Shown one piece after another: positions 6,802 to 10,552 of a DNA stretch of 61,696 nt (positions are counted from its first letter, which is position 1; each line of letters opens with the position of its first letter). The stretch spans positions 1 through 61,696 of the forward strand of contig CANRFT010000010.1 of NCBI GenBank assembly GCA_947629955.1, in the 5' to 3' direction. This DNA is from an uncultured Oscillospiraceae bacterium. GTDB lineage: Bacteria > Bacillota > Clostridia > Oscillospirales > Oscillospiraceae. The position numbers were made by a program, and so were the translations under genes. The notes beneath the pieces are model-generated. The model worked only from the letters and a program-made list of their open reading frames with translations. It was not told where the DNA came from and ran no database searches.

Positions 6802-6868
6802 CTCCTTGCTTCATCCTTCACCGCTTTCCCACAGGCTCATCCGTCAGCCCTGCGGGCTGCCAGCTTAA

Positions 6869-6901
6869 AAATACGCCCCTCCATAACGGAGAGGCGTATT
6901 T
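6869..6901 (-). terminator. Terminator of the sigma-serpin operon
   Basis: AAATACGCC / GGCGTATTT outer stem with CTCC/GGAG inner pair, followed on the minus strand by a short T-run; lies 10 nt after the second serpin stop. Confidence 0.8.
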
Positions 6902-6911
6902 CGCGCGTATA

Positions 6912-8402
6912 TCACGCCGGGTCATTCACCACCCCCACGAACAGGGGCAGCCCCGCCGGGCCGGTGATGGCAAACACGAAGGGCCGGTCCACCGTGAACT
7001 CCACCGTGTCGTCGGGAGGCGCGGCGGCCCCCGCCGGCGCGTCGATGATGGTATAGGCGGCGGCCTCCACCTTCTCCTCCTCCACGATGACCCGGGCCGC
7101 GTGCTCGGCTTTTGACACATACACCAGCGGCACGTCGGTGAGGGGGGTGAAGTCGGCGATGTCCATGTCGAACACGTCGGTGACGCCCAAGGCCTTCAGC
7201 CCGTCGATTAGGTCGATGCCGGTGGAGATGTCGAATTTGGGCAGGGTCAGGATGATGTCGTAGTACCCGGACCCGCCCCAGGGATAGGTGGTGACGAAGG
7301 TCTCGGGGTCCCACTCCCCGGCGCTGTCCCAGTCGGTGCTCAGGAACTCCACCGCCTCCCCGGAGGCGATCAGCTCCTCCGGAGTCGTTCCCTCGTCGGG
7401 CAGGAGGACCCACATATGGTAGCCGTAGTCCTCAAAGGAGAGGCAGACCGCCCCGAACCGCTCCGCCCAGTAGTATTGCCCCTCCATGGACTTGTGCATC
7501 AGGTCGGCGGTCACGTCGCCCTCCGGGGCGTGGAAGTCGCCGGGGGCGGTGCGGTCCGGGTCAAAGGGGTCGGCCCACTTGGCCTGATAGTACAGGGTGG
7601 ACACCAGGGCGATGACGGTGGCGGGATGCAGCGTCAGGTCCTTGGAATAGTCCTTCAGCAGGCCGTGGGTCTGGCCGTCGATCCAGTCCCGGAGGGCCTG
7701 GTCGTACTCAGGAGACCCCGCCTCGCCGGAGAAGGCGGAGGCGTAGTAGTCGTCCGCCAGCCGGTCCAGCGTCTCCTGGACGTAGTGGCCGTCAAAGGTG
7801 TCGTTGAGCCACATGGAGTTTGCCAGGATGGAGGCGGTCTGCCCGTCGTCCCGGTAGTTGTCCCGCCACAGGTCCCGGGCCAGGGCCCGGACGTCCTCGA
7901 TGGTGTCCGCCCCCAGCAGGGCCAGCAGCTGGTCCCGGCTCTCCCCGCCGGTGGTCTCCGCCAGCATGGACAGGGCCAGGTAGATGTTCAGGGGGGAGTA
8001 CACCCGGTTCTCCCCCTCCCCGCCGGCCAGGAATTGGGCGGCGGTGGCGGAGAGGTAACCGTCCAGCAGGCCGGTATACTCCCGGCCGGAGGAGAGGGCG
8101 CGGACGCTCTCCGCCCACTCCTGCCGGGCGTCATAGTAGCGTTCAGTGTCCAGCACGCCCGCCACCACATAGTCGGTGTCCACGGGGCAGGGGACCATCT
8201 CCGGGTACTCAGCGGCGGCCAGGGCGGTGGCTTTGCCGGGGCCCGTGTAGTCCTCCGTGCCGGGGAGGGGGTCCGTTTTCTCCACGGCGGTGTGCCGGAA
8301 GGGCCCGCCGGGCCATAGCACCACCCCGGCGGCCACGGCGGCCACCAGGATGACAGCTACCACGGCGATCCAGATGCGGCGTTTTTTCGGTCTCTGTTCC
8401 AT
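6912..8402 (-). CDS. Membrane-anchored serpin (distal gene of sigma operon)
   Basis: A 496-residue serpin-family protein. Residues 1-9 are basic, ~10-31 form one transmembrane segment, then a ~60-residue linker leads to the serpin domain outside the cell. Serpin marks: NRVYSPLNIYLALSML (~146-161), NYRDDGQTASILANSMWLND, FHAPEGDVTADLMHKS, and the C-terminal RPFVFAITGPAGLPLFVGVV. The hinge of the reactive loop reads EEEKVEAAAYT; counting 17 positions from the hinge Glu puts Gly-Ala at P1-P1'. P15 is Lys rather than the usual Gly, and P14 is Val, so inhibitory loop insertion is plausible but not certain. It is a paralogue of the gene before it (20-nt gap, AAAGGAGGAG site) and shares its operon and terminator. 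Target protease unknown. Confidence 0.9.
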   Translation of the reverse strand: MEQRPKKRRIWIAVVAVILVAAVAAGVVLWPGGPFRHTAVEKTDPLPGTEDYTGPGKATALAAAEYPEMVPCPVDTDYVVAGVLDTERYYDARQEWAESVRALSSGREYTGLLDGYLSATAAQFLAGGEGENRVYSPLNIYLALSMLAETTGGESRDQLLALLGADTIEDVRALARDLWRDNYRDDGQTASILANSMWLNDTFDGHYVQETLDRLADDYYASAFSGEAGSPEYDQALRDWIDGQTHGLLKDYSKDLTLHPATVIALVSTLYYQAKWADPFDPDRTAPGDFHAPEGDVTADLMHKSMEGQYYWAERFGAVCLSFEDYGYHMWVLLPDEGTTPEELIASGEAVEFLSTDWDSAGEWDPETFVTTYPWGGSGYYDIILTLPKFDISTGIDLIDGLKALGVTDVFDMDIADFTPLTDVPLVYVSKAEHAARVIVEEEKVEAAAYTIIDAPAGAAAPPDDTVEFTVDRPFVFAITGPAGLPLFVGVVNDPA

Positions 8403-8422
8403 TCTCGCTCCTCCTTTCGCGT

Positions 8423-9976
8423 TTACGGGTGGTTGACCACGCCCACGAACAGCAGCTGCCCCGTCTCGCTCTCGATGGCGAACAGGAAGGGCCGGTCCAG
8501 GGTGAAGTCAATGGTCTCGTCCGCCCAGGGCGCGCTGTCTTTCACCGCGAGCACGGTGTAGGCGGCGGCCTCCACCCCCTCCTCGTCCAGGGTGACACGG
8601 GCGGCGTGCTCCGCGTTGGAGACCGCCAGCCCCGCCGAATCGGTCAGGGGGGTGAAATCGGAGACGGCACTGTCAAACACGTCGGTGATCCCCAGATGTT
8701 TCAGCCCGTCGATCAGGTCCAGGTCAGAGGACACGTCAAATTTGGGCACGGACAGGTCGATATGCAGGAACTTCCGATCCGCCCAGCCCAGCTTATCGGC
8801 GGCCAGGAACTCCGCCGCCGCCCCGGAGGTGAGCAGCTCGTCCGCGGACACCCCCTCGTCAGGGAGCAGGAACCACATGGAGCCGCCCTCGCAGAAGGAC
8901 TTCTCCACCGCGCCGAACCCCTCGCCCCGGTAATAAAACTCCGTGGCGGTCTGGTGGAGGTAATCGGCGGTCACGTCCCCCTCCGGGGCGTGGAACACAT
9001 CTTCGGTGTTCTGCTTCGGGGAGAACTCCTCCTCCCAGCGGGCCTTGAAATGGATGGTGGTCACCAGGGCCAGCACCGTCTCCGGGTCCAGCTCCAGCTG
9101 GCCGGAGGCGTCCTTCAGCAGGCCGCCGGTCTGTGCGTCGATCCAGCCCCGCAGGGCCGCGTCGTAGCCCTCTGAGCCCATTTCCCCGGAAAAGGCGGAG
9201 GCGTAGTAGTCCTTCGCCAGCGTATCCAAGGTGTCCTGATGATAGGCGCCCGCCAGGTCCTCATTCAGCCACAAAGAGGCGGCCAGCAGAGAGGTGGACA
9301 TCCCGTCGTCCCGGTAGTTGGCCTGCCACAGGCCGGCGGCCCGCTGCCGCAGGGTCTCCACGCTGTCGGCGTCCAGCAGGTCCAGGAGCTGCTGCCGGCT
9401 GTTCCCGCCGGTGGTCTCCGCCAGCATGGACAGGGCCAGGTACACGTTCAAGGGGGAGAACACCCGGTTCTCCCCGCCGCTGTTCCCCAGAAACTCCGGC
9501 AGGGCGGCGGCGCAAAAGGGTGCCAGCCCGTCCTCCGCCGGGGCCAGGGCCTGACGGGCCTCCACATCCTCCCGCCAGGCGCGATAGGCGGCAGAGTCGT
9601 CCGAGCTGGGATAGGGCACCGTCTCCGGGTACACCGCCGCCGCCAGGGGGACGGCTCCGGCAAAGCCCACGCCCGGCTCCCCGGCCTGGGGAGCGTCCCC
9701 GGCGGGGGCGTCGGCCGGGGCCTCACCGAAAGCGGGTTCTCTCACGGGGCCGGCCGCTCCCACGGGGGCCTCCGGCGCGCCCATGCCCGTCGCGCCCACC
9801 CCGCCCAGCAGGCGGGGGACCGTTCCAACCAGCAGTACCACCGCCAGCACCGCGGCCGCCGCTCCCAGCCAGACCGCCCGGCGGGGGCGTTTGACGTCGG
9901 AGGGCGTTTCGATCACGTTTCGCTTCAATTCATCGGGGGCGTGGATGCCCTCGTTGGCCTTTTTGTACCGTTCCAA
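8423..9976 (-). CDS. Serpin fused to anti-sigma-like membrane N-terminus
   Basis: A 517-residue protein with an unusual plan. Residues 1-33 form a short charged cytoplasmic segment (MERYKKANEGIHAPDELK), 34-60 one transmembrane helix, ~60-165 a Pro/Ala/Gly-rich linker, and ~165-517 a full serpin domain (NRVFSPLNVYLALSML, NYRDDGMSTSLLAASLWLNE, FHAPEGDVTADYLH, C-terminal RPFLFAIESETGQLLFVGVV). The reactive-loop hinge DEEGVEAAAYT keeps Gly at P15 and the small P12-P10 residues; P1-P1' counts to Ser-Ala. The start is a TTG: GAGGAGG lies eight nt before it and no in-frame ATG fits. It begins four nt after the ECF sigma stop, where anti-sigma genes sit, and the N-terminus looks like the cytoplasmic tail of such proteins, without a zinc HxxxCxxC motif. 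Confidence 0.9.
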   Translation of the reverse strand: MERYKKANEGIHAPDELKRNVIETPSDVKRPRRAVWLGAAAAVLAVVLLVGTVPRLLGGVGATGMGAPEAPVGAAGPVREPAFGEAPADAPAGDAPQAGEPGVGFAGAVPLAAAVYPETVPYPSSDDSAAYRAWREDVEARQALAPAEDGLAPFCAAALPEFLGNSGGENRVFSPLNVYLALSMLAETTGGNSRQQLLDLLDADSVETLRQRAAGLWQANYRDDGMSTSLLAASLWLNEDLAGAYHQDTLDTLAKDYYASAFSGEMGSEGYDAALRGWIDAQTGGLLKDASGQLELDPETVLALVTTIHFKARWEEEFSPKQNTEDVFHAPEGDVTADYLHQTATEFYYRGEGFGAVEKSFCEGGSMWFLLPDEGVSADELLTSGAAAEFLAADKLGWADRKFLHIDLSVPKFDVSSDLDLIDGLKHLGITDVFDSAVSDFTPLTDSAGLAVSNAEHAARVTLDEEGVEAAAYTVLAVKDSAPWADETIDFTLDRPFLFAIESETGQLLFVGVVNHP

Positions 9977-9979
9977 CGC

Positions 9980-10447
9980 TCATACCTCCTCATTCAGCAG
10001 ATCCCGCAGGAAGGCCCGGCCCCGGCTCAGCTGGGACTTCACCGTGCCCTCCGGCAGATCAAGGGTCCCGGCGATCTCCGCCACCGACAGCCCCTCGAAA
10101 TAGTGCAGGTGGATCACCGCCCGGTACCGGGCGGGCAGGGACAGCACCGCGCTGTACACCTCGCGGTACTCATCCTCCACCCCCACCTGGGCGGCCACCT
10201 CTAAGGGGAGGGTGCGCTTCCGCCAGGGGGAGGAGAGCAGGCTGTTGGCCCGATTCACCGTGCAGCGGATGAGCCACGCCTTCCGGTGCTCGTCGCTCCG
10301 CAGCTGATCCTCGTGGCGGAAAAAGCGCAGGAAGACCTCCTGGAACACGTCCTCCGCGTCCGGGACGTTAGCCGTACGCGCCAACGCCAGCCGCCACACC
10401 ATATCGCCCCAGCGCTCCACCGCCTGGGTGCGCTCCTCCTGGGTCAC
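9980..10447 (-). CDS. ECF-type RNA polymerase sigma factor
   Basis: A 155-residue group 4 sigma factor. Region 2 spans residues ~8-75 (WGDMVWRLALARTANVPDAEDVFQEVFLRFF, DAEDVFQEVF being the core-binding helix), and region 4 spans ~95-150 (LPARYRAVIHLHYFEGLSVAEIAGTL, then LPEGTVKSQLSRGRAFLRDLL, the -35 recognition HTH). The GTG at 10447 is chosen because AGAGGAGG lies eight nt upstream and it gives the usual ECF length; longer starts run through the predicted promoter. First gene of an operon with two serpins, the first of which probably acts as its membrane anti-sigma factor. An ECF-like promoter just upstream suggests autoregulation. Confidence 0.93.
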   Translation of the reverse strand: MTQEERTQAVERWGDMVWRLALARTANVPDAEDVFQEVFLRFFRHEDQLRSDEHRKAWLIRCTVNRANSLLSSPWRKRTLPLEVAAQVGVEDEYREVYSAVLSLPARYRAVIHLHYFEGLSVAEIAGTLDLPEGTVKSQLSRGRAFLRDLLNEEV

Positions 10448-10471
10448 GGGCCTCGCCTCCTCTCTGTACGG

Positions 10472-10499
10472 AATACCCTGCATGTCGGGAAAAGGTTGC
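10472..10499 (-). promoter_or_regulatory. Candidate ECF autoregulatory promoter
   Basis: Minus strand GCAACCTTTT-type -35, 16-bp gap, GGTATT as -10. The AACC core with following T-run resembles promoters of Firmicutes ECF factors. No housekeeping -35/-10 pair is evident here. Confidence 0.45.
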
Positions 10500-10521: not shown

Positions 10522-10552
10522 AAGCCCCGCCGTGGAGCACACAGCGGGGCTT
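10522..10552 (-). terminator. Terminator of the ricT operon
   Basis: AAGCCCCGC / GCGGGGCTT stem, 13-nt loop, then TTTT on the minus strand, 10 nt after the ricT stop and directly before the sigma promoter. Confidence 0.85.

Follow-up and report, generated by a model that had tools for sequence, protein, structure and literature searches.

A serpin-bearing membrane protein in the anti-sigma position of an extracytoplasmic function sigma factor operon of gut Clostridia

In Bacillus subtilis the extracytoplasmic function (ECF) sigma factor SigV is held by RsiV, a single-pass membrane anti-sigma factor. Its outer part binds lysozyme, an enzyme of the host, after which cleavage by signal peptidase and a site-2 protease frees the sigma factor (excerpt of PMC6066255). 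Here we describe an operon of related layout in 61,696 nucleotides (nt) of DNA from an uncultured Oscillospiraceae bacterium (contig CANRFT010000010.1 of assembly GCA_947629955.1, positions 1 to 61,696; this whole stretch is called the window). In this operon an ECF sigma gene is followed by the gene of a membrane protein that carries a serpin as its outer domain (serpin 1) and by the gene of another membrane serpin (serpin 2). The outer part of RsiV, by comparison, consists of DUF4179 and a lysozyme-binding domain and is not a serpin (excerpt of PMC6066255).

Other described systems share single traits with this locus, as far as the excerpts of the papers cited here extend. RsiP, which controls SigP in Bacillus thuringiensis, is also a single-pass anti-sigma factor, with signal peptidase acting at site 1 and RasP at site 2, but the sensor is a separate penicillin-binding protein and no serpin appears in the excerpt (PMC8844934). 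The RsgI proteins of Clostridium thermocellum are membrane anti-sigma factors that make up a family and differ in their interchangeable outer sensing domains; SigI, however, is another kind of sigma factor and the outer domains sense polysaccharides (PMC3990059, PMC12203970). Serpins of this organism are listed as separate components of the cellulosome (PMC3990059). The gut bacterium Bifidobacterium breve makes a serpin in response to proteases (papain), but there the response works through a two-component system encoded beside the serpin operon, and the serpin is not the regulator (PMC8012564). Siropins and other gut serpins are inhibitory serpins of gut Clostridia, but they are described as inhibitors, and no link to a sigma factor was seen among the matches listed or in a term search of PMC8201313. 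Among the literature matches listed for serpin together with sigma-factor words, no description of a fusion between serpin and anti-sigma factor was found, while an earlier mention in the ECF classification literature is possible; where both serpin and sigma factor were named, the two were unrelated in the parts available.

Operon structure and conservation of the sigma-serpin pair

The sigma gene encodes a short protein with sigma2 and sigma4 regions and without sigma3, as is characteristic of ECF sigma factors (Sigma70_r2, E-value 1.7e-11; Sigma70_r4_2, E-value 2.2e-17; both over the Pfam cut-offs). Its stop codon TGA is followed by a single codon, GCG, and then by the TTG of serpin 1, which starts 3 nt past the sigma stop. 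Serpin 1 opens with 33 hydrophilic residues, the last of them basic; from about residue 34 the sequence is hydrophobic, and a linker and the serpin domain come next. The domain has the complete serpin fold (PF00079, profile positions 6-370 of 370, E-value 7.9e-59), and its nearest solved relative is conserpin (6ee5, E-value 3.1e-40). A Pfam scan found no DUF4179 after the helix, returning only Serpin and a chance match to DUF3040. Serpin 2 runs from 8402 to 6912 (PF00079, profile positions 19-370, E-value 7.2e-57). An earlier reading of the letters alone (hereafter the sequence-only reading) had described this order, with TGA, one codon, a TTG-started membrane serpin with a 33-residue cytoplasmic piece and a second membrane serpin behind it, and the sequence and Pfam confirm it. 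Its operon edge at 10499 has to be corrected as regards the sigma gene, which starts at 10447; 10499 is the first base of a likely -35 box.

Serpin 1 shows two traits expected of an anti-sigma factor, a gene directly downstream of the sigma gene and translational coupling to it. A separate anti-sigma gene was considered as well, since the sequence-only reading had named such a gene as an argument against itself, and was rejected: the span from operon promoter to terminator holds only the sigma gene and the two serpin genes.

A whole-genome search of 42 genomes of the window's genus yielded 55 serpin matches in 37 genomes, of which 53 could be classified, two fragments being left out. With one exception (L010, without an ECF gene within 1.5 kb), these 53 genes lie within ECF operons (52/53), and for 38 the sigma gene is the immediate upstream neighbour. 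In 29 cases, in as many of the 42 genomes, this is the orthologue of the window's sigma gene (type 1), and in nine it is a different ECF gene (type 2), which was recognized by Sigma70_r2 over the cut-off in 4/4 tested and by a model built in this analysis in 9/9. Seven genes encode a second serpin behind the type-1 serpin, and seven (L003-L009) a lipoprotein serpin whose gene follows those of a type-2 ECF sigma factor and a separate membrane partner; this unfused arrangement recurs in L038 and L046, two loci of a family search. The second serpins of L014 and L015 (genomes G027 and G030) have a lipobox in place of the plain helix. Sigma and serpin genes overlap by 4 nt in 27 of 37 pairs, with two genomes occurring twice among the loci.

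Beyond the genus, a search of 400 genomes of the family showed a membrane serpin next to all 19 closest sigma relatives fetched (99-59% identity), 14 of which belong to six other genera. The next 11 relatives in this search (56-44% identity) had no serpin partner, nor had any of 18 further relatives with a recognised partner (20 fetched). In a tree of type-1 sigma factors, 44 serpin-partnered sequences stand on one side of a branch and the 35 others on the other, equivalent to a single change (support 74); L071, L080, L201 and L246 were left out of this tree, and L180, whose outer part lies off the contig, was placed with the serpin-partnered sequences on the strength of its N-terminus only. 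The sequence-only reading had regarded lack of conservation in relatives as evidence against it. Instead, the pair recurs in 29/42 genomes of the genus and in six other genera, and a chance neighbourhood of sigma and serpin gene was rejected on this ground.

Among 430 confirmed named loci, the best 80 were picked by their likeness to ECF-linked serpins; an ECF gene lies directly upstream in 61 of these 80 (26 type 1, 35 type 2) and is lacking there in 19, a proportion that is no rate for all serpins. Two of the 19 unlinked loci (L213, L253) hold another serpin that is ECF-linked. Among the 80 loci are Oscillospiraceae (Flavonifractor, Pseudoflavonifractor, Oscillibacter and others) and Lachnospiraceae (Acetatifactor, Roseburia, Blautia, Cuneatibacter), mainly from gut metagenome assemblies; a type-2 pair is also found in a cultured relative, Flavonifractor sp. 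ECF linkage is common in one serpin subfamily and not in all serpins: only two (L038, L046) of the 29 best general serpin scorers of the family search (L033-L061) have an ECF gene plus partner upstream. A class-level search at the strict limit of E 1e-90 matched 7 of 391 genomes, the window's own genome included. What the sequence-only reading had taken for a single oddity is accordingly one of two ECF types with such serpins in gut Clostridia.

In serpin trees the domains linked to type-1 and to type-2 ECF genes fall into a common subfamily, from which the lipoprotein serpins of the genus are separate. The two types are partly interleaved, type-2 L120 and L133 grouping with type-1 L011, L018 and L117 (support 92) and type-2 L238 with type-1 L091 and L092 (support 87). 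In these quick trees four incomplete type-1 rows (L021, L079, L086, L088) were labelled free, which makes the change counts too high, and the named branches were used instead; they suggest that the serpin module may have moved between anti-sigma platforms.

Cytoplasmic piece, promoter and reactive loop

A model built from 35 type-1 partners without a serpin gave at least 7 bits for all 43 cytoplasmic pieces of type-1 serpins, compared with 6 of 2150 shuffled pieces, only one of which reached 10 bits. Likewise, a model from 18 non-serpin type-2 partners recovered 44/44 type-2 serpin pieces versus 6/2200 shuffled ones. Scores of at least 6 bits across types were restricted to 5/44 and 1/43. Since the piece resembles non-serpin partners of the same type, it tracks the sigma type, and the serpin is the shared outer module. 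Five of 40 non-serpin type-1 rows were dropped for the model and for the promoter and dyad counts, namely L180 (cut by the contig end), L071 and L080 (longer, with a different N-terminus) and L201 and L246 (wrong partner). Among six type-1 partners scanned for DUF4179, L105 was over the cut-off and L111 just under it.

The helix starts between residues 29 and 70 (median 34) in 78 ECF-linked serpins. In the 19 unlinked serpins it starts at residue 20 or before in 15, at 27 in one and at 38 in another with uncertain start, while two gave none; this later start of the helix in linked proteins than in most unlinked ones indicates that the cytoplasmic piece accompanies the sigma gene. Serpin 1 of the window, which scores 13.1 bits against the model of non-serpin type-1 partners, therefore has a further anti-sigma trait, an N-terminal segment related to partners of the same type and followed by one helix. 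We propose residues 1-33 as the putative sigma-binding segment; Tyr4, Ala7 and Leu/Pro positions are conserved in it. The suggestion that the serpin protein occupies the anti-sigma slot gains support from this relationship.

A likely promoter, GCAACC-N16-GGTATT, was read upstream of the type-1 sigma genes. Its strict form (spacing 15-17) precedes 28/42 serpin-partnered type-1 sigma genes and none of the 35 other type-1 or 44 type-2 genes. For a relaxed form the numbers are 37/42, 2/35 and 0/44, and 0.3-0.7% in shuffled upstream regions. Because the pattern was read from serpin-partnered genes, the informative comparison is the contrast with the other sigma genes. When 5-mer pairs were counted blind, GCAAC-GTATT came up in 33/42 upstream regions of serpin-partnered type-1 genes; the top pair of type-2 regions occurred in 11/44, versus 4 in shuffled type-2 regions. 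TGTCA-(14-19)-TGCGA is present in 11/44 type-2 upstream regions and is perhaps the type-2 promoter.

In the window's own genome (98.5% complete) the only exact promoter match is that of the operon, and the promoter data fit autoregulation by the window's sigma factor, with this pattern as its candidate recognition sequence. Allowing one mismatch gave 8 sites versus 1 for the control. Downstream of two of the other seven sites, an open frame of 90 or more codons begins within 200 nt (at 29 for L274, at 185 for L275). All seven fall inside open frames of 150 codons or longer; the true promoter does so too, which makes this a weak test in G+C-rich DNA. Across the 42 genus genomes the exact pattern matched 53 times versus 33 for the reversed control, and 20 of the 53 matches precede a type-1 sigma gene (judged by eye), the other 33 equalling the control level overall. 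These site counts weaken the idea of a wider regulon. The exact GCAACC-N16-GGTATT also stands before one and the same gene in seven genus genomes, all with a type-1 pair (L167, L168, L173, L174, L176, L177, L178). From its motif, and without a family search, we take this gene to be uridine kinase-like; it is a possible second target.

The hinge of serpin 1, EEGVEAAA, has Glu at P17, Gly at P15 and small residues at P12-P10 and so corresponds to the inhibitory kind, provided that the P numbering, set by comparison with the usual serpin convention, holds. This agrees with the earlier view of serpin 1 as a putative protease trap. Serpin 2 departs from the inhibitory hinge at P15, where it has Lys. 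The hinge is intact in 46/51 type-1 and 38/44 type-2 rows, counts that include near-copies, several rows being the window's own protein. The predicted P1 of linked serpins is mostly Gly, Ala or Ser and would suit elastase- or subtilisin-like proteases.

Proposed mechanism and alternative explanations

The order of the genes and its conservation, the homology of the cytoplasmic piece with non-serpin partners, the promoter and the inhibitory hinge, all read from sequence, lead us to favour, with some confidence, the view that serpin 1 is a membrane anti-sigma factor of the RsiV kind, which has a serpin as its ectodomain and would autoregulate its own protease shield. Sigma binding, a protease as the signal and proteolytic release of the sigma factor are the parts that we infer. 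The 33-residue cytoplasmic segment would hold the sigma factor at the membrane, and one helix plus a stalk would present the inhibitory serpin outside the cell. A protease attacking the serpin would either cut the loop and be trapped or, once the serpin is spent, cut the stalk. Either event would lead to inactivation of the membrane protein, for which regulated intramembrane proteolysis of the RsiV kind is the most likely route, and the freed sigma factor would drive its own promoter. As this would yield more sigma factor, serpin anti-sigma factor and serpin 2, the shield would be rebuilt as it is consumed. Unlike RsiV, the outer part would inhibit the very enzyme it encounters.

Serpins are placed, in two ECF types and in many gut Clostridia, where a signal receptor is expected. 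We tentatively consider that a suicide inhibitor may act here as a receptor, each membrane serpin holding one sigma factor that would be freed when the serpin is irreversibly trapped by or lost to a gut protease, with spent inhibitors being counted and replaced, and with the same outer module on two ECF anti-sigma platforms in Oscillospiraceae and Lachnospiraceae. If true, this would give bacterial serpins a signalling role and anti-sigma factors a new sensing domain, and would offer a self-contained protease-responsive switch, a compact conversion of protease contact into gene expression.

Several points weigh against an RsiV-like mechanism. The reactive loop lies at the C-terminal end, and a cut there alone leaves the serpin attached to the membrane, so that a second cut or a change transmitted through the stalk is needed for sigma release. 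The inhibitory hinge says nothing for signalling, because it is equally common in serpins without an ECF gene (50/57 rows). The score of the window's cytoplasmic piece is 13 bits only. An RsiV-like site 1 is not established, as the signal-peptidase-like AxA follows the helix in 13/43 type-1 proteins versus 6.5 expected from shuffles; for type 2 it is found in 25/44, within the serpin's own N-terminal motif, and in non-serpin partners in 5/35 and 1/18. In favour of the mechanism, the site-2 protease family is present in the window's genome, but it is also present in 14/14 control genomes.

The most serious alternative, which we nevertheless consider rather unlikely, is that the fusion only co-produces and anchors an effector together with a regulator that responds to some other signal, such as envelope stress or turnover, the serpin being pure output. 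The unfused three-gene version (L003-L009) indeed shows a serpin as plain output of an ECF operon, and serpin 2, without a cytoplasmic piece, is output only; on the reading that we favour, fusion would have made the serpin a sensor as well. Two observations argue against pure output: in both ECF types a serpin takes the place of the ectodomain, where sensing usually resides, and 29/42 genus genomes retain the fused form.

That the serpin fold is a non-inhibitory binding domain for some ligand seems improbable. Five of the 51 type-1 rows, among them the type-1 serpins of G027 and G030, are off the hinge pattern, and the Lys at P15 in serpin 2 points the same way, but the intact hinges in the large majority of both types argue otherwise. 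It is very improbable that the serpin protein does not act on the sigma factor at all, which would then be controlled otherwise and have the serpin as an incidental neighbour: translational coupling, conservation across genera and a cytoplasmic piece matching the sigma type all speak against it.

Feature coordinates and minor observations

Table 1. Features of the sigma-serpin operon and its surroundings in the window
Feature	Position	Strand	Basis
Likely ECF promoter GCAACC-N16-GGTATT of the sigma-serpin operon	10472..10499	-	Pattern read before type-1 sigma genes
ECF sigma gene, 155 amino acids, GTG start, behind AGAGGAGG	9980..10447	-	Pfam
Serpin 1: putative membrane anti-sigma factor with serpin ectodomain, 517 amino acids, TTG start, AGGAGG before start	8423..9976	-	
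Residues 1-33 of serpin 1, its cytoplasmic piece, proposed to bind the sigma factor	9878..9976	-	Model of non-serpin type-1 partners
The one transmembrane helix of serpin 1, at roughly residues 34-54, flanked by basic residues towards the cytoplasm	9815..9877	-	Hydropathy
Serpin domain of serpin 1, residues 154-517	8426..9517	-	PF00079
Reactive loop of serpin 1 with its hinge, DEEGVEAAAYTVLAVKDSA; Gly at P15, Ser predicted at P1	8531..8587	-	
Serpin 2: membrane serpin, 496 amino acids, about 9 residues before the helix, P15 Lys	6912..8402	-	
Hairpin with a T run behind it, likely terminator of the operon	6867..6900 (hairpin-scan match 6894-6878)	-	
Hairpin AGCCCCGC...GCGGGGCT with TTT behind it, likely to terminate the gene upstream	10523..10551	-	Read from sequence

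The hairpin at 10523..10551 has a loop of 12-13 nt, above the maximum of the hairpin scan, and is hence missing from the scan list. Two G+C-rich perfect hairpins, at 6797-6776 and 6606-6586 of the window, lie between the operon and the next gene and are possibly dispersed palindromic repeats.

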